26,685 bases of DNA from a virus. Positions 128-10,845 of this stretch are shown here, in pieces. How positions within the stretch are numbered: position 1 is the stretch's first letter; each line of letters opens with the position of its first letter. The notes below the pieces were generated by a model. That model searched no databases and was not told the DNA's origin. It was given only the letters and a program-made list of their open reading frames with translations. Made by a program: the position numbers and the translations under genes. The DNA is taken from IMG/VR virus record IMGVR_UViG_3300045119_000245, positions 1-26,685 of that record. The stretch is one strand, 5' to 3'.

Positions 128-1437
128 GTCAAACCCGGCTCCGACAGGAACCCCCACAACCCCGCAGGCAACAGCGGCTCGCCGACGCCGGTCGGTACCG
201 ACCTCGACGGCCACCGGTTCAGCCACTGCGCCTGGAACGCCTCGACCGGGTCCGCCTCGTCCTCGACCAACTCGGCCTCGCCCGCCTGGACAGCCTCGAG
301 TTGTTTACTCACGAGCCGCTGCCGCTGCGGCGTCCAGTGCGGCGACGCCTGCCGCCACCCATCCACGTCATCCAGCGCGCACGACCTCGGGGCCGACCAC
401 TCGATCAGCAGATCCCCATCACCGACCTCGAGGTTATTGAGCGCGACCTGCCGCCGGCCCAGCATCAACGCCGTCGCCTCACGGTGCGCCGTCGAGACCA
501 GCCAGAGCTGCGGCTGTTCCCGCTCGACCATCGTCGGCGCCAGCCCCTCGTCGATGATCTCGGGTTTCACCTTCCACGCCTCATCGACGGCACCGACCGA
601 GACCGAGTAGCCGTACACCGCGCCGCGGGCACGCAGCAGCCAACGGGAATGATCCTCGAGCCGCTCGATGTACTGCTCCCCCGCCGCCCGGCCCACCTTG
701 TAGCCCGGCCGGTCATCGGCCCAGTACAACGCCGGCCGCAGCACCTCCTTGCACACCTGCAAATCCTTCCCGGTATGAAGAACGTCCTGGGGCTCGCCGA
801 ACCGGTCGCCCTGATGGACACGCCACAGCAGCAACTCACGCAACAGCCACGACTTCCCGAGCTGCCGCGCCATCGTCAGGATCAGCGTCTCCCACACAAG
901 CCGGCCGTCCGCGTCGACCTCGAGCAACCTGGTCGCGACGAGCCGCTGCCACCACCGGAGCGCCCGGCCCTCCCGCGCCTCCGCCCACGCGATGAACGCC
1001 GGGCCGATCGACCCGACAGCCCGCGGATGCGGAACCGTCATGTACCTCGGCCACGTCGCATCCGCCGGCATCCTCCGCAGCCCCTTCAACCACGGAACCC
1101 GCCACCGCTCATCACCCGCCGGCACCCCTTCGCGCTCAGGCTCGACCTCGACCGCCGCCGGCGGCGACCAGCGCATCCGGTTCGTGATCGCCGCACCAGC
1201 AACCCCGGCCGCGTACAGGTTGCAGCCAGCGTGCTCGGGCCCCGAGTACCGCGACCGGTCATCGTCTACATGCCCGAGGTGCCACTCCTCGCCCGGCACG
1301 ATCGGCTGCCCACACCGCGCGCACCGCACCCCCCCGGCCAGCACCAGAGGCTCGAGCCGACGGCGTATCGCCTTATGCTTCGAATCGTAACCCCGATCCG
1401 CCGTCCTCGGCCGCATCCTTGTCGCCTCGCGTGACAT
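1..1437 (-). CDS. HNH-terminase large subunit fusion (5' part; continues at 26558)
   Basis: The gene crosses the contig cut: codons 1-479 are here and the rest runs from 26558 down to 26184, giving 603 aa. Residues about 35-80 form an HNH/zinc fold (CARC at 39-42, HLGH at 53-56, GPEHAGCN at 66-73). This is followed by a TerL ATPase with Walker A ARQLGKS (190-196), Walker B VGAVDE (281-286), a coupling-type motif LVSTAHR (313-319) and FQAQWLNRWP (401-410). The RNase H-like nuclease opens at VAVEDHFGRG (444-453). TerL pumps DNA into the prohead and cuts it. In HK97-like phages the HNH protein is usually a separate gene next to the terminase; here it is in frame with it. ATG 1437 is chosen because the 13-codon frame before it ends in TGATG. 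ATG 1416, preceded by GAGG, and GTG 1491 are alternatives. Confidence 0.9.
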   Translation of the reverse strand, partial: MSREATRMRPRTADRGYDSKHKAIRRRLEPLVLAGGVRCARCGQPIVPGEEWHLGHVDDDRSRYSGPEHAGCNLYAAGVAGAAITNRMRWSPPAAVEVEPEREGVPAGDERWRVPWLKGLRRMPADATWPRYMTVPHPRAVGSIGPAFIAWAEAREGRALRWWQRLVATRLLEVDADGRLVWETLILTMARQLGKSWLLRELLLWRVHQGDRFGEPQDVLHTGKDLQVCKEVLRPALYWADDRPGYKVGRAAGEQYIERLEDHSRWLLRARGAVYGYSVSVGAVDEAWKVKPEIIDEGLAPTMVEREQPQLWLVSTAHREATALMLGRRQVALNNLEVGDGDLLIEWSAPRSCALDDVDGWRQASPHWTPQRQRLVSKQLEAVQAGEAELVEDEADPVEAFQAQWLNRWPSRSVPTGVGEPLLPAGLWGFLSEPGLTGDGPMFVAVEDHFGRGAAVAVAAPLPDGRIEVDGWLCPDWDT

Positions 1438-3849: not shown

Positions 3850-4511
3850 GGCTCGTCCTCGGCCATCTCCTGCAACGCCTCGACGACGGCGTTCTCGTCG
3901 TTGTCGTTCAGGTACTCCGACTCGAGCTCGTACTCCTCGACCGCGTCGATCCCTTCGGGGTTCCCGAACGGGATCTCGTCATCCACAAGATCGTCGGGCA
4001 AGGGTGGCGGGACGATCTCCTGGAGCTCGTCGTCCAACGCCAAGCCGAGCGCGACCTCGGGGGCGAAGTCGATGATCGCGTTCTTCGACGCCCTCGCCCA
4101 CAGCATCCTGCTCGGATGGGTCGTCCACGGCGACCCGGCACGGATCAGCCCGGCTTTCTTCGCGTGCTCGAGCGTGAACGTCGACTCGCCGAGGACGCGG
4201 CCTTCGTGGTCGACGATCCGGGCGGTGCACGTCTCGTCGGACAGGTCGACGCGGAAGATGCGGTAGCCGCGCTGCACCGCCAACGCCCGCAACAGCTGCG
4301 CCCCGACGTACAGCCGGCCTTTGATCATCGACAGCTCCGCGACCGCGAGCGGGGTGAGGCCGAGCTCGGTCGCGTAATACAGGCGCAGCGCAGCGGTGGC
4401 GCCCTTGGCGTTCGGGCTGCTGTCACCCGACTCGGCCGCGGCGAGCCACTGCCCCAACCTGGCGATCTCGTCGAGGCGGCCGGGTTGTTTCTTCGCGATG
4501 TCCTTCGTCAT
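3846..4511 (-). CDS. RecT-like single-strand annealing protein
   Basis: The product is 221 aa. Its core matches the RecT-type annealing family: ALRLYYATELGLTPLAVAELSMIKGRLYVGAQL (41-73, a helix then a beta hairpin), RVDLSDETCTARIV (87-100), a FTLEHAKKAGLI segment (112-123), and PWTTHPSRMLWARASKNAIIDFAPEVALG (128-156). The C terminus is strongly acidic. Such proteins anneal complementary strands during phage recombination and replication. ATG 4511 has a strong AAAGGAG at 7 bases and an ATGA overlap, so it is preferred to ATG 4541. No partner exonuclease is visible. Confidence 0.8.
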   Translation of the reverse strand: MTKDIAKKQPGRLDEIARLGQWLAAAESGDSSPNAKGATAALRLYYATELGLTPLAVAELSMIKGRLYVGAQLLRALAVQRGYRIFRVDLSDETCTARIVDHEGRVLGESTFTLEHAKKAGLIRAGSPWTTHPSRMLWARASKNAIIDFAPEVALGLALDDELQEIVPPPLPDDLVDDEIPFGNPEGIDAVEEYELESEYLNDNDENAVVEALQEMAEDEP

Positions 4512-6048: not shown

Positions 6049-6335
6049 AACGCATCCCTGAGCACGCGGAGGGCAACGGCGGCGACCTGTAGCACCTCGG
6101 CGCGGGTGTTCTCGAACGTTGGGGCGCGGCGCTCCTCGCGCCATGCTTGCAACGCTTCGGCGACTTCGTCTTCCAGGCACGCGAGTCCGAGCCGCGAGCG
6201 ACCGAGTTGCGTCGTGCCGCTGAACCGGCCGTGCTTGTCGTCTTGTCGCGCGATCTCCTGAAGAAGCCGGTAGACCAGCGGATCGATAACTTCGCTCTCC
6301 GGCCGTTTACTGGGGTTCTGATCCGCAAGGCTCAT
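6045..6335 (-). CDS. MazG-like nucleotide pyrophosphohydrolase with NPSKR tag
   Basis: The product is 96 aa. Residues 1-12 are the repeated tag (SLADQNPSKRP). The rest follows the all-alpha NTP pyrophosphohydrolase plan: LLQEIARQDDKHGRF, then GLACLEDEVAEALQAW with the acidic metal-binding residues, then RAEVLQVAAVALRVL. Such phage enzymes hydrolyse NTPs or dNTPs to monophosphates, for example to shape the nucleotide pool. ATG 6335 is in an ATGA overlap with the excisionase-like gene. Catalytic activity is inferred from the motif pattern only. Confidence 0.6.
   Translation of the reverse strand: MSLADQNPSKRPESEVIDPLVYRLLQEIARQDDKHGRFSGTTQLGRSRLGLACLEDEVAEALQAWREERRAPTFENTRAEVLQVAAVALRVLRDAL
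6300..6335 (-). repeat. NPSKR gene-start repeat, copy 2
   Basis: Located at the start of the MazG-like gene, this copy includes the ATGA stop/start overlap. It encodes SLADQNPSKRP and is nearly identical to copy 5 (6749-6784) except around the D-S/Q codons. Confidence 0.85.
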
Positions 6336-6784
6336 TCGCGCCGCCCCACCAGGTATGCCTCGAACGCGGCCTCGGGGATGCGAACAGCCTTCTCGCCAAC
6401 CCTGATCGAGGGCAACACACCGTCGGCGCACATCCCATAGACAGTGGTGATGTTCAGGCTCAATCTTTCGGCGACCTCGCTGGCCTTCAAGTAACCGGCG
6501 TCTTTCTCGTCGTCCGGCCGTTTACTGGGGTTCGAGTCCGCCAAGCCGGTCGGTGTATACTCTGACCGTTCACCGCCGGGGATCAGCGGGGCCGGGAAAC
6601 CGGCCCTTTCCTTTTCGCCAGGTGCGACACCCGTCCGCCGTTTTCCGGGGTTCTGATCCGCTAGGCCGCCCGGTGAGACAGGCCCGAATGCGTTACCCGA
6701 CGCAGCCGCGGACTGGTCGGTGCCCGGACGGTTTCCTGTCTCACCTGACGGCCGTTTACTGGGATTCGAATCCGGAAGGCTCAT
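6332..6784 (-). CDS. Excisionase/AlpA-like HTH protein with three NPSKR repeats
   Basis: The product is 150 aa. The N-terminal two thirds is disordered and carries three copies of the L(A/P)D(S/Q)NP(S/G)KR motif (start, about residue 40, about residue 80). The C-terminal domain (YLKASEVAERLSLNITTVYGM, then LPSIRVGEKAVRIPEAAFEAYL) is a MerR/excisionase-type winged HTH. Such proteins act as recombination directionality factors or small regulators. Since the phage has an integrase, a role in excision is reasonable. ATG 6784 overlaps the previous stop (ATGA). Whether the tags are functional is unknown. Confidence 0.65.
   Translation of the reverse strand: MSLPDSNPSKRPSGETGNRPGTDQSAAASGNAFGPVSPGGLADQNPGKRRTGVAPGEKERAGFPAPLIPGGERSEYTPTGLADSNPSKRPDDEKDAGYLKASEVAERLSLNITTVYGMCADGVLPSIRVGEKAVRIPEAAFEAYLVGRRE
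6515..6550 (-). repeat. NPSKR repeat, copy 3 (internal)
   Basis: This copy is inside the excisionase-like gene, in the same reading frame as the copies at gene starts. It encodes GLADSNPSKRPDD and retains the DNA block GAACCCCAGTAAACGGCCG. Confidence 0.85.
6635..6670 (-). repeat. NPSKR repeat, copy 4 (internal)
   Basis: A second internal copy in the excisionase-like gene, encoding GLADQNPGKRR. It is 120 bases from copy 3 and 114 from copy 5, both multiples of three. Confidence 0.8.
6749..6784 (-). repeat. NPSKR gene-start repeat, copy 5
   Basis: This copy is at the start of the excisionase-like gene across its ATGA overlap. It encodes SLPDSNPSKRP. Confidence 0.85.
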
Positions 6785-6996: not shown

Positions 6997-7043
6997 ATCG
7001 GCCGCCGATTACGCTGGTTAACATCCGATAGCCGAGCGGTCAC
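6993..7043 (-). CDS. 16-codon linking micro-ORF
   Basis: It starts at a GTG within the stop of the 31-aa gene and ends within the GTG start of the 71-aa gene, with GTGA overlaps at both ends. The likely role is ribosome relay across what would otherwise be a gap. The peptide has no recognisable feature. Confidence 0.3.
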   Translation of the reverse strand: MTARLSDVNQRNRRPM

Positions 7044-7135
7044 AGATTGACCCGCTCGATCAGGTGCGGCTCGAGGACGGCTGGTAGTCGCCACCGGCCC
7101 CAACGGTCACGAGTGAATCCGGCCTCCTCTATCAT
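7040..7135 (-). CDS. 31-aa small protein after the DUF5131 gene
   Basis: ATG 7135 is in an ATGA overlap with the stop of the HTH-DUF5131 gene. The sequence (IEEAGFTRDRWGRWRLP, then LEPHLIERVNL) is amphipathic and W/R-rich. It is coupled to the cassette above and could be its fourth member. No family is recognised. Confidence 0.45.
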   Translation of the reverse strand: MIEEAGFTRDRWGRWRLPAVLEPHLIERVNL

Positions 7136-8196
7136 CGCGGCCACTCCCGCACGGGTTGCATGCCTGGGCCACGGCCGTGGACCGAGCCGAACAGGTTGTG
7201 CTTCAGGTAGACGCGGCAGCCGGCCTTGCGGGCCTGCTCGTACAAGTCAACGACCCACTCGAACGGCGGCGCGAACGGCTCCGCGTGAGCCGATCCGGTC
7301 GAGGCGCCGATCACGACCCAGTCGAACATCGCGAGGCTCTCGAACTGGAGCGGCTCGAGGAGCGGCTCGCAAGAGAGCCACTTCACCCCGGCAGTGACGC
7401 CGGCGAAAGCGCGTTCAGCTACAGCGACCTTGTGCTGCCTGTCAACGGTAGTACCTGCCCACACGTTGTCGGGCCACTCCAGTTGGGCCAAGCGCTGGGG
7501 GAACTTCGTCAGACAGAGGTACTCCCATTGGCGGTGTTGATCGATCGCGTTGAAGACCGCTGTGATCCACTCCTGCGGCACCCATTTGCCGAACAAGTCC
7601 GCCATCGAGCACGTGAAAACTCGGCGCCATTCGGGATCGTCGTCAGCGGTTTTAGGCAATCGCGTATTTGCCGGGGCATCGAGTCGTTCCGGCAGAAACG
7701 TCGGCTCGAACTTCTGCGGGTAGAACCGCTCGGCGAGGTCGCGGGCGTAGCAGTAGTCGCAGTTGTGCAAGCAGCCGGTGACGGGGTTCCACGACCACCG
7801 CGCCCAACCGATGTTGTCGTTGACCCTGTTGAATGTGGCTGGTGCATTTGCACCATTCGATTCGCCCGCGCCCACTTCGAGAGCGGCATCGAGAAGCAAT
7901 GCTGGTGCATTTGCACCACCGTTGTTGTCTCGCACGATCGTCGAGTGATCGACGCCAAGTACTGCGCCGATCTCCCGAGTTGTCATTCCTTCCTCGGTGA
8001 GCTCGGCGACTGCGTCACGGCGATCGTCGATCTTCAAGCGCATGTGGCCACCGACGTATTTCTCCGCCCACTCCTTGAGCTCGAGGCCGAGGGCATCCGG
8101 GATGCCCTCGCGGTGCGCCCAAGCGACCTGACGCCACCACCCCGCGCCAATCTGACCGAAGGCCTCCGAGAACTCTTCCGCTGCTTCGCGATCCAC
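7132..8196 (-). CDS. HTH domain fused to three-Cys-motif (phage Gp37/Gp68, DUF5131) protein
   Basis: The product is 354 aa. Residues 58-90 form a resolvase/ParB-type HTH (DDRRDAVAELTEEGMTTREI and GVDHSTIVRD). Residues 128-354 match the DUF5131 family: WSWNPVTGC, then C-x3-C-x2-C at 142, 146 and 149, FTCSMADLFG, WEYLCLTKFPQRL, VWAGTTV, WLSCEPLLEPL and DWVVIGAST. The triple-cysteine arrangement resembles a radical-SAM 4Fe-4S site. GTG 8196 has AAGGAG 5 bases upstream and a 1-base overlap with the HNH gene. The linker between domains carries two identical DNA dyads. The reaction and substrate are unknown; the HTH fusion suggests a DNA-linked job. Confidence 0.8.
   Translation of the reverse strand: MDREAAEEFSEAFGQIGAGWWRQVAWAHREGIPDALGLELKEWAEKYVGGHMRLKIDDRRDAVAELTEEGMTTREIGAVLGVDHSTIVRDNNGGANAPALLLDAALEVGAGESNGANAPATFNRVNDNIGWARWSWNPVTGCLHNCDYCYARDLAERFYPQKFEPTFLPERLDAPANTRLPKTADDDPEWRRVFTCSMADLFGKWVPQEWITAVFNAIDQHRQWEYLCLTKFPQRLAQLEWPDNVWAGTTVDRQHKVAVAERAFAGVTAGVKWLSCEPLLEPLQFESLAMFDWVVIGASTGSAHAEPFAPPFEWVVDLYEQARKAGCRVYLKHNLFGSVHGRGPGMQPVREWPR
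7840..7855. promoter_or_regulatory. 16-bp dyad, copy 1, inside the HTH-DUF5131 gene
   Basis: TGGTGCATTTGCACCA has 7-base perfect arms around a TT centre. It is identical to the copy 63 bp away. It encodes GANAP in the linker. It could be an operator for the HTH of the same protein, or simply a repeated linker peptide. Confidence 0.45.
7903..7918. promoter_or_regulatory. 16-bp dyad, copy 2, inside the HTH-DUF5131 gene
   Basis: This is an exact second copy of the dyad at 7840, also preceded by GC. The 63-bp centre distance is about six helical turns. I found no third copy in the window. Confidence 0.45.
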
Positions 8197-8420
8197 TACC
8201 GCTCCTTGCCATGCTCGGCGGCATGGCAGGACTGGCAGATCGGCTCGAGGTTCTCGACGACGTCGAAGGTGCCCCACGGGGGGTAGCGAAGATGGTGCAC
8301 CTGAGTCGCTCGACCGCCGCAGCGTTGGCAGCGCCAGCCGGCGCGTTCCATCGCCTCACGCCGAACAGCACGGAACCGCGGGTGAGCAAGGTACTCGGCG
8401 TAGGAGCGGTAAGCGATCAT
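8196..8420 (-). CDS. HNH endonuclease
   Basis: The product is 74 aa and a complete small HNH fold: WRCQRCGG (28-35), QVHHLRYPPWGTFDVVENLEPIC (39-61) and CQSCHAAEHG (61-70). All zinc and catalytic residues are in place. ATG 8420 overlaps the TcmP-like stop (ATGA), and its TAG shares a base with the GTG of the DUF5131 gene. It could be the nuclease of this cassette, or a homing-type nuclease. Confidence 0.8.
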   Translation of the reverse strand: MIAYRSYAEYLAHPRFRAVRREAMERAGWRCQRCGGRATQVHHLRYPPWGTFDVVENLEPICQSCHAAEHGKER

Positions 8421-9223
8421 GCGGTCTCGAAGAGGCGTGGGTGGTCGCGCTCATAGAGCTCCTGCAGCGTCCGGTCGAGCTCAGCGAGTCGCTCAAACGC
8501 CGGCTCGCCGGTGATGAACCCACGCACGCCCCAGCGTGAATTCTCGAGGTGGTTGGTGTCGGAGCCGAGCGCCATCACCCACTGGTGCGCGGTGTTCGCC
8601 TCGCGGACGTGCCAGTAGCGTTTGCCGATCGCCTTGACGTCGTCGACGAGTGAGCGTTCGTGGTAGCCGGCGCGCCGCGGCCGCTTGTAAGCGCTGTTCG
8701 CGGAGACGTGCAGGAGCACGTCGAGCCTGTCGAGGCCAGGGGTCGCGAGTAGCCCTCTGATCGTGTCGCAGGGGATCAGGCCGCCGCCGTCGAGGTCGAC
8801 GTAGATCAGGCCGAGCGAGCGGCGCGGCGGCGGTGTGAGGACGTACTCCTTGATCTCGGCGAGCGTGTCCCCGTCGTTGTGGTCGCCGGTGACGATCGCT
8901 ACCGGGTCGTGTTCGTGGCCGTTACGGTCGAGCCACTCGCTGAGGTCGGCGACGTGGTCGGGGTCGCGCTCGACGAACACGACCCGGTAGCGGGTGTTCA
9001 GTCCGTTAAGGAGACGCAGCAGGATCGTGGGGCTGCCTTCGTGCATGTCGCCGTTCCGGTCGGGGAATGCGTGACGACCGGCGGTGAGGTCGACCACGGT
9101 GATCTCGTTCCACACCCACGGCTGCCGGCGGGCGTTGTGCGCGATCCCGAACACAGCGCCCGCGAGCGCACGGAGGTCGTCCTGCTTCTTCGGCGTGTTC
9201 TCCGGGCTCGCGTGGAAAGTCAC
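8417..9223 (-). CDS. TcmP-like (three-Cys-motif partner) protein
   Basis: The product is 268 aa. ITVVDLTAGRHAFP (41-54) followed by HEGSPTILLRLL (61-72), then YRVVFVERDPDHVADLSEWL (79-98) and LGLIYVDLDGGGLIP (about residues 137-151), follows the Rossmann-like plan of TcmP proteins. These are named for occurring next to DUF5131 three-Cys-motif proteins. Exactly that partner lies one gene downstream, which strengthens the call. GTG 9223 is used; the hairpin 9221-9251 covers it. Biochemical function is unknown; a methyltransferase-like fold is possible. Confidence 0.65.
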   Translation of the reverse strand: MTFHASPENTPKKQDDLRALAGAVFGIAHNARRQPWVWNEITVVDLTAGRHAFPDRNGDMHEGSPTILLRLLNGLNTRYRVVFVERDPDHVADLSEWLDRNGHEHDPVAIVTGDHNDGDTLAEIKEYVLTPPPRRSLGLIYVDLDGGGLIPCDTIRGLLATPGLDRLDVLLHVSANSAYKRPRRAGYHERSLVDDVKAIGKRYWHVREANTAHQWVMALGSDTNHLENSRWGVRGFITGEPAFERLAELDRTLQELYERDHPRLFETA

Positions 9224-9336: not shown

Positions 9337-9361
9337 GCGGGTTCGATTCCCGCCGCCTCCA
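9337..9361 (+). other. attP core: 3' end of a tRNA or tmRNA gene
   Basis: GCGGG (9337), loop TTCGATT (9342-9348) and CCCGC (9349-9353) form a perfect T-arm. It is followed by the acceptor strand CGCCTCC and A at 9361, with no encoded CCA. There is no 5' half of the RNA in the window. Tyrosine integrases commonly recombine at such 3' ends so that the host gene is restored on insertion, and the integrase gene stops 37 bases away. A tmRNA target is possible, since upstream bases also look tmRNA-like; which RNA is not decided. Confidence 0.8.
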
Positions 9362-9397: not shown

Positions 9398-10597
9398 TTA
9401 CAAAGCCTCTTTTTCGGCGTTGTCTTCGTAGACGCCGAAGTCGTCGGCGCGGTTCATCTCGCGGAGGGCGGTCGCCAGGTCGAGCGTGTCGAGATCGCTG
9501 TAGATCGACGTCGTCCCGACGTCTCTGTGGCCGAGCATCAACTGTGTCAGCTTCAGGTCGTGGTGTGCGCGCTGAAGGTCCCGGCCGGCGGTGTGGCGAC
9601 CGCGGTGCATGTTGGCTCCGGACGTGACACCCGCCTCGACATGCCCGGCGAGCTGCAAGCAGCGGTACCACCACCGGTGCACCGCCTGCACGCTCAGCCG
9701 TTCCGGGCCGTGGGCGCGAGTAGTGACGTTCGCGTACCCGACCCGCTGCCTACCGACCTGCAGCACCTCGTCGGCGGCGTCGAGCGGGACCTTCCGGCGG
9801 CGGGTGTCCTGCCGGTACAGAAGGTAATCCTCCTCGCTGAGTTGGGCCTCGAGTTGGAGCTCGGCGAGGCGCCGCCAGAAGTGGGCCTCGACGATCGGGA
9901 GCGGGTACACCCGTCCGCCCTTGGTGCGGACGATCAGCTCGCGTTTCTCGAAGTCGAAGTCTCCGAGCCTGATGTTCCGGATCCCGGAGCGACGCAGCCC
10001 GTACCGGAGCACGAGGAAGCAGAGAACCCAGTCAGCGACGTACTCCTGCCGGCCAAGGACCTGCTTGACGGTGTTCTCGGTGAACGTCTTCCGTTCGACG
10101 TCGCGGGCCTTCGGGACGGTAAGCGCACGGGACGGGTTGCCCGGCAGGCCGCATTCACGGATCGCCCAGTCGAAGAAATCGTTCCAGATCGACCTGACTT
10201 TCTTCTTCGTGCGGGGCGACCGGTCGCGCCAGTGACGGGCGAGGCATTCCCGGCAGAGCTCGATTCCGGCCGGCGGGGTGAAGTCGAGGATCCCGACGGT
10301 GGGGTTGTCGAGCGCGAGCCACGCCAGTGGGGGCTCGTAGTCGCGGAGCGTGTCCTCGGCGGCGCCCCATTCGTGCTCTTTCCAGCTGAGATACCGCGCG
10401 ATGTCCCAGCCGAGCGGTGTCTGCTGGTAGCGCTTGTCAAGCACGGGGTTGTCCAGGATCGCCCTGGCCTCCGCGAGCGTGAATAGCGCCTGCGTAAGAT
10501 CGTTGCCGCATGGGAGCTGAACCCTCCTGTGCCGTGCCCGGGCCGTTTCGGCGGCGCCGGGCTTCTTGTTGTCGGCCAGGAGGATACTCCCGTTCAC
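9398..10597 (-). CDS. int: Tyrosine integrase
   Basis: The product is 399 aa. The core-binding domain (about 35-165) is followed by a catalytic domain with Arg202 in RYGLRRSGI, Lys226 in RTKGGR, box HRGR at 331-334, LGHRD with His357, and nucleophile Tyr366 in SIYSDLD. All residues of the family are present, so it should be active. It catalyses site-specific integration and excision at the adjacent attP. GTG 10597 overlaps the XRE-gene stop (GTGA) and is preferred to the ATG at 10642. Co-transcription with the regulator couples integration to the lysogeny decision. Confidence 0.92.
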   Translation of the reverse strand: MNGSILLADNKKPGAAETARARHRRVQLPCGNDLTQALFTLAEARAILDNPVLDKRYQQTPLGWDIARYLSWKEHEWGAAEDTLRDYEPPLAWLALDNPTVGILDFTPPAGIELCRECLARHWRDRSPRTKKKVRSIWNDFFDWAIRECGLPGNPSRALTVPKARDVERKTFTENTVKQVLGRQEYVADWVLCFLVLRYGLRRSGIRNIRLGDFDFEKRELIVRTKGGRVYPLPIVEAHFWRRLAELQLEAQLSEEDYLLYRQDTRRRKVPLDAADEVLQVGRQRVGYANVTTRAHGPERLSVQAVHRWWYRCLQLAGHVEAGVTSGANMHRGRHTAGRDLQRAHHDLKLTQLMLGHRDVGTTSIYSDLDTLDLATALREMNRADDFGVYEDNAEKEAL

Positions 10598-10845
10598 GGC
10601 AGCAGGTCTCCGAACATCAGGTAGGCGGCGCTGGCACGACACGCTTTCGCGACCCGGACCAGATGATGATCGCTGGGGAAGCGTTGCTCGGCCTCCCAGC
10701 GGCAGACGGTGGCGTACGTCACCTCGACCGTCTCCGCGAGCTCGCGTTGGGTCTTGTTGACGGCGAGCCTCGCGGCCCGGATCCGGCGCCCGTACCCGGG
10801 GGTGGGGTCGGTCGCGTTCGCGGACGCCTCAGCCAGCATCTCCAT
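10594..10845 (-). CDS. XRE/Cro-CI-type HTH regulator, repressor candidate
   Basis: The product is 83 aa from ATG 10845, which has AGGAGG about 10 bases upstream; a longer start at 10926 would run through the promoter region. The HTH is RIRAARLAVNKTQRELAETVEVTYATVCRWEAEQRFPSDHHLVRVAKA, a classical XRE helix-turn-helix. A short hydrophobic tail ends at FGDLLP. There is no protease or dimerisation domain of the LexA-like CI type. It is first in an operon with the integrase and divergent from the HTH gene at 11077, so it is the best immunity-repressor candidate. Confidence 0.75.
   Translation of the reverse strand: MEMLAEASANATDPTPGYGRRIRAARLAVNKTQRELAETVEVTYATVCRWEAEQRFPSDHHLVRVAKACRASAAYLMFGDLLP

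Follow-up and report, generated by a model that had tools for sequence, protein, structure and literature searches.

A phage-borne TcmP-like, HNH and DUF5131 cassette as a possible DNA-directed modification and cleavage module

We identified a three-gene cassette in a 26,685-base virus contig (IMG/VR virus record IMGVR_UViG_3300045119_000245; this whole stretch is referred to as the window) that encodes a TcmP-like protein, an HNH nuclease and an HTH-DUF5131 protein (Table 1). The same cassette recurs in dozens of phages, which rules out a chance origin. The analyses directly support the gene anatomy, the conserved association, the predicted enzyme folds, an exclusive HNH subfamily and the joint exchange of TcmP with the N-terminal domain of DUF5131. 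From these we infer catalytic activity, DNA as the substrate, a combination of marking and cutting, and a biological role. We put the probability of a phage-borne module for DNA-directed modification plus cleavage, akin to restriction-modification and with an unusual chemistry, at roughly 40%.

Table 1. Coordinates of the cassette and adjoining features in the window.
Feature	Position	Strand	Basis or remark
Whole cassette	7040-9223	-	TcmP-like, HNH and HTH-DUF5131 genes plus 31-codon frame
tcmP-like gene, 268 aa, GTG start	8417..9223	-	TIGR04474 match; predicted SAM-methyltransferase fold, RlmJ best
HNH nuclease gene, 74 aa, ATG start overlapping tcmP stop	8196..8420	-	PF01844
HNH domain, two CxxC pairs and HH motif	8211..8330	-	Pfam and alignment of relatives
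HTH-DUF5131 gene, 354 aa, predicted radical-SAM enzyme	7132..8196	-	PF07505; GTG at 8196 overlaps HNH stop TAG
HTH region of DUF5131 N-terminal extension	7930..8028	-	weak HTH_38 match
CX3CX2C [4Fe-4S] site	7750..7773	-	three cysteines invariant in 83 relatives
31-codon frame overlapping DUF5131 stop, doubtful gene	7040..7135	-	not conserved
Tyrosine integrase adjoining cassette	9398..10642	-	context
Excisionase/HTH-like protein, downstream of cassette	6335..6760	-	context
Probable attP core, 25 bp, GCGGGTTCGATTCCCGCCGCCTCCA	9337..9361	+	identical to 3' end of actinobacterial tmRNA (ssrA) genes

The three genes lie on one strand with overlapping junctions, as the original prediction of a coupled set had it: an ATGA overlap joins TcmP to HNH, and a TAGTG overlap joins HNH to DUF5131, whose start is most likely the GTG listed in Table 1. 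Third-position GC is high, 0.77-0.88, in all three frames. Start/stop overlaps are also common at the junctions of other cassettes, with the ATGA type the most frequent. A 31-aa gene had been predicted at the end of the set; its frame does overlap the DUF5131 stop by ATGA, but no convincing relative was found in the fetched loci, and it is a doubtful, unconserved gene. We also observed two perfect copies of GGTGCAAATGCACC (7841-7854 and 7904-7917, 63 bp apart, arms GGTGCA/TGCACC) in the linker-coding part of the window DUF5131 gene, where shuffled sequences lead one to expect 0.11. This repeat is absent from the other loci and is a possible operator.

The contig, from a soil-type phage, carries genes for an integrase, a repressor, an excisionase-like protein, RecT and an endolysin, which together indicate a temperate phage. 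The cassette had been placed next to an integrase, and a tyrosine integrase does adjoin it, with the probable attP core between integrase and tcmP. Of 100 genomes from the phylum to which locus L034 belongs (record named Actinomycetes), 13 contain this 25-base core, which corresponds to the 3' end of the tmRNA gene in all four loci examined. Integration is thus probably in ssrA, which would put the cassette at one edge of the prophage. A permuted tmRNA called by ARAGORN at 745-1239 (- strand) has no Rfam support and is a probable false positive.

The TcmP family model TIGR04474 matches residues 38-202 of the first protein with 45.2 bits (E 1.1e-11), below the curated cut-off of 53; the protein is a divergent TcmP-like protein and is not filed as a TcmP equivalog. 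Structure prediction and comparison, proposed as a check of the original prediction, were run for this protein and for DUF5131. The AlphaFold2 model of TcmP (pLDDT 91.5) has RlmJ as its best structural match (Foldseek E 3e-8; Z 15.9 over 206 residues, 14% identity). RlmJ is an RNA enzyme, the 23S rRNA A2030 N6-methyltransferase, with the catalytic motif DPPY. This motif was sought in TcmP and is absent: across 59 relatives, motif I (DLxAGxG) is kept and the Asp of motif IV is invariant, but this second motif reads DPN in most of them. The window protein deviates in both motifs, with DLTAGRHA in motif I (GRH, the second glycine lost) and DLDG in place of DPNG in motif IV. It may therefore be a weak or inactive methyltransferase, and this copy may bind rather than methylate. 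No close relatives of the window TcmP were found in viral contigs by peptide pattern, and tblastn did not find the TcmP-like query genes in 50,697 records of isolated phages; the TcmP-like family was reached solely through neighbours of DUF5131. In the papers found to name TcmP it appears as an annotation, and a search of the literature found no mechanism.

The third protein matches PF07505 (DUF5131) at 141.2 bits against a gathering score of 28.9, and the cysteines of its CX3CX2C site, noted in the original prediction, are invariant in 83 of 83 relatives. The radical SAM model PF04055 scores 23.1 bits, under its cut-off of 29.5; the CX3CX2C site and the predicted barrel fold are the features that place DUF5131 in the radical SAM superfamily. 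The structural model (pLDDT 81 overall, above 90 in the core, low in the N-terminal part) matches spore photoproduct lyase (SplB) best, with Z 13.9 over 204 residues (rmsd 3.2, 13% identity; next family 11.5), and RlmN is also among the matches. Spore photoproduct lyase is a DNA enzyme, whereas RlmN is a radical-SAM enzyme that acts on RNA. DUF5131 shares with SplB the predicted core fold and the CX3CX2C site, but differs in its fused DNA-binding domain and its methyltransferase-like partner.

An HTH fused to DUF5131 had been predicted. HTH_38 is detectable in the extension (E 5e-5), but it falls under the Pfam gathering score, and the HTH-only form is an exception among phage-type relatives, most of which have a ParB-like extension. 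Compared by profile, the aligned N-terminal region of DUF5131 gives matches to ParB/Noc structures (E 2e-5), and a weak ParB_N match is present in L078/L009. Most phage-type proteins resemble the ParB/Noc CTPase family at their N-termini, but no ParB_N was found in the window protein, whose extension is HTH-like only.

These folds bear on two further explanations. TcmP and DUF5131 could modify rRNA or tRNA, for example to counter RNA-targeting defences, with the N-terminal domain regulating expression. RlmJ as the closest solved fold of TcmP and RlmN among the matches of DUF5131 are consistent with this; the ParB/HTH fusion, the spore photoproduct lyase match and the exclusive HNH point instead to DNA, and TcmP lacks the catalytic DPPY of RlmJ, so we regard action on RNA as quite improbable. 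DUF5131 could alternatively be a phage DNA-repair enzyme for photoproduct-type lesions, assisted in repair by TcmP and HNH. Its closest fold and the RecT-type recombination genes found close to some cassettes would fit, but repair does not account for the methyltransferase partner, the joint exchange of TcmP and the DNA-binding domain, or the chromosomal pairs that are candidate defence systems; we consider repair very unlikely.

The middle gene encodes a complete HNH nuclease, as predicted (PF01844, 29.4 bits; gathering score 21.4). Across 22 cassette HNHs, the cysteines and the HH of its CxxC...HH...CxxCH pattern show little or no variation, and the cassette subfamily has the signatures YxxYxEYLxHP... 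and HHxxYPxWGxFDxxENL. The original prediction had called for a survey of conserved neighbourhoods for HNH with the pair. We searched 2.9 million viral contigs with the HNH alignment alone and identified 60 loci (near-copies included, frames called mechanically), all in the cassette, with DUF5131 in 58 and TcmP in 59; the exceptions are at contig ends. Because the signature motif Y[PC]xWGx[FY]DxP served as the anchor of the scan, the exclusiveness is that of this subfamily. A profile of cassette HNHs separates them (at least 76 bits) from all others (at most 55 bits). The same search in 296 genomes of one phylum returned other HNHs only, with no DUF5131 or TcmP in the fetched stretches. By sequence, the cassette HNH is a dedicated, cassette-specific subfamily. 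Its members (74-100 aa, no separate DNA-binding module) occur in three gene orders: between TcmP and DUF5131 as in the window, after DUF5131, or before TcmP.

Scanning with DUF5131 returned 80 loci in viral contigs and 31 in genomes, from which redundancy was removed. Excluding loci at contig edges and counting extensions of at least 120 residues, a TcmP-like gene lies upstream of DUF5131 in 48 of 48 non-redundant viral loci with the N-terminal extension and in 0 of 11 without it. Of the 48 cassettes, 19 have HNH and 29 lack it. The pair is thus common without HNH, and HNH was not seen without the pair. This asymmetry is expected of a partner-dependent nuclease, as in restriction-modification; a homing HNH bound to this locus would give the same. 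Absence of HNH and HTH from all relatives, which the original prediction had named as the result that would speak against it, was not found: the nuclease and the DNA-binding extension both recur in phages, whereas the chromosomal pairs carry HNH in 0 of 35 loci and ParB in 1 of 35. Lone DUF5131 phage genes (L011, L013, L017, L021) tend to precede ASCH-domain genes, which is not the rule beside the cassette.

In many phages the cassette is surrounded by genes for replication or packaging, frequently with replication, terminase or portal genes as neighbours, and not by cargo genes. This placement, the folds, the DNA-binding fusion and the absence of HNH from most cassettes would also fit a cassette that hypermodifies DNA and so protects the phage genome against host restriction, with HNH as an optional packaging or replication nuclease. 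Among 117 neighbouring proteins we found no further recurrent partner, and in particular no recurrent gene for nucleotide biosynthesis or other modification. Hypermodification also leaves the dedicated HNH unexplained, and the ParB-like or HTH domain points to action at specific sites and not across all DNA; we give this alternative a low probability.

In a tree of 142 DUF5131 sequences, the phage-type proteins form one clade of 79 (support 100/100), apart from the clade of the chromosomal pairs (100/100). Two cyanobacterial loci (L026, L027) have extension-less TcmP-DUF5131 pairs inside the phage-type clade, and their TcmP has DPNG. Among 69 phage-type rows, a set enriched in HNH by the HNH scan, the tree calls for about 15 changes in the presence of HNH. 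The correlation of distances is r = 0.70 between HNH and DUF5131 core, 0.61 between TcmP and core, and 0.46 between TcmP and HNH.

Close relatives of the window reveal an exchange of modules. The window shares 80-83% identity with L002, L004 and L014 in the DUF5131 core and 58-62% in HNH; its TcmP has 21-30% identity to theirs over half its length, and those three are mutually 58-63% identical in TcmP. The pattern is general. We compared 152 pairs with a core identity of at least 72%, which are not independent, so that the figures describe the set and are not probabilities. TcmP and the N-terminal domain were both replaced in 43 of these pairs, neither in 72 and one only in 37, and the similarities of the two are correlated (Spearman 0.65). 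N-terminal domain similarity is 0.10 in close pairs where TcmP differs, versus 0.48 otherwise. HNH similarity stays at 0.76 of its maximum in the 27 close pairs with HNH present and TcmP replaced, compared with 0.78 where TcmP is kept and 0.47 in distant pairs. We read these patterns as two linked halves, in which TcmP and the DNA-binding domain appear to be exchanged jointly while HNH and the radical-SAM core stay.

The same patterns bear on whether HNH is a free-standing homing-type endonuclease that cuts HNH-less alleles near the radical-SAM gene and so spreads, the function of TcmP and DUF5131 being unrelated. Its patchy presence, with the changes on the DUF5131 tree, its three insertion positions around the same genes, its exclusiveness to one locus and a similarity that tracks the conserved core are what a homing gene would produce. 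Its small size with no separate DNA-binding module, junctions that are start/stop overlaps, and an HNH-core correlation above that of TcmP with the core argue against it. We hold homing to be unlikely.

TcmP and DUF5131 were described in the original prediction as a known, unexplained pair, and PADLOC indeed carries them as the candidate defence systems PDC-M41 and PDC-M30. The two genes have no known mechanism and are present in about 9% of sampled genomes from two bacterial phyla (TIGR04474 matches in 37 of 396 and 17 of 199). We read 35 chromosomal TcmP loci; DUF5131 is adjacent in 34. Chromosomal TcmPs mostly have DP[YFW], whereas the phage type has DPN. The window DUF5131 matches PDC-M41B (E 2.5e-39). 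The A-models of PDC-M41 and PDC-M30 do not match the TcmP of the window and four phage-type relatives, save for one weak match (2e-4), and the window, having the B component only of the two required, falls outside both systems. The phage cassette thus has the same two families adjacent, but adds an HTH or ParB domain and often HNH, with its DUF5131 in a separate clade. Proteins around 12 chromosomal-pair loci include type I restriction-modification and MADS components. PDC-M30 was reported in 32 of 100 P. aeruginosa strains, 68.8% of which were phage-resistant, a correlation (PMC10855318). The S. meliloti TcmP gene SMa2243 is listed beside the defence gene Hna (PMC12445080).

Several observations make a module for DNA modification and cleavage the best explanation: the DNA-binding fusion, the radical-SAM fold like that of a DNA enzyme, the co-exchanged methyltransferase-like partner and the nuclease that occurs only with the pair. 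The status of the chromosomal pairs as candidate defence systems and their neighbours lend further support. The degenerate motifs of the window TcmP and the RNA substrate of RlmJ count against this reading, as do the frequent placement among replication and packaging genes and the patchiness of HNH, which also fits a mobile nuclease. The predicted DNA-directed system stands insofar as the parts are of DNA-directed kinds and HNH and the DNA-binding fusion recur together.

In the modification-plus-cleavage module, DUF5131 would be a radical-SAM enzyme of the spore photoproduct lyase structural type, tethered to DNA by its HTH in the window or by a ParB-like domain in most relatives. TcmP would be a Rossmann methyltransferase-like partner matched to the N-terminal domain, and the two together would set the target or complete the modification. 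HNH would cut unmarked DNA, or DNA that the complex selects. As a prophage or early in lytic growth, the phage would in this way shield its own genome, with competing or host DNA as the target. Like restriction-modification systems, the cassette has apparent specificity, modification and nuclease parts, its nuclease is not found without the partners, and the joint swap of TcmP and N-terminal domain resembles specificity exchange. It differs in its radical-SAM component, and the likeness carries no claim of sequence kinship to restriction-modification components. It is possible, if doubtful, that the cassette represents a novel type of modification-restriction system: a radical-SAM enzyme on an exchangeable ParB or HTH domain and a matched, exchangeable methyltransferase would mark DNA, and HNH would cut what is unmarked. 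If true, phages would carry a system that marks DNA by radical chemistry and has a nuclease of its own. The phage form reveals the nuclease and DNA-binding domains that accompany the pair and the parts exchanged jointly, and so makes the function directly testable.

Related genes are also present on plasmids. A phage-plasmid of Streptomyces sp. NBC_01238 (plasmid unnamed3, L237), which has terminase, capsid and tail genes, carries a complete TcmP-HNH-DUF5131 cassette; its HNH gene at 4184-4409 has no entry in the plasmid's gene table. An S. caniferus linear plasmid encodes TcmP with a ParB-DUF5131 protein and no HNH. On the P. aeruginosa plasmid pF046 (L238, 3937-7094), adjacent integrase, DUF5131 and TcmP genes of the PDC-M30 type form what looks like a mobile unit.
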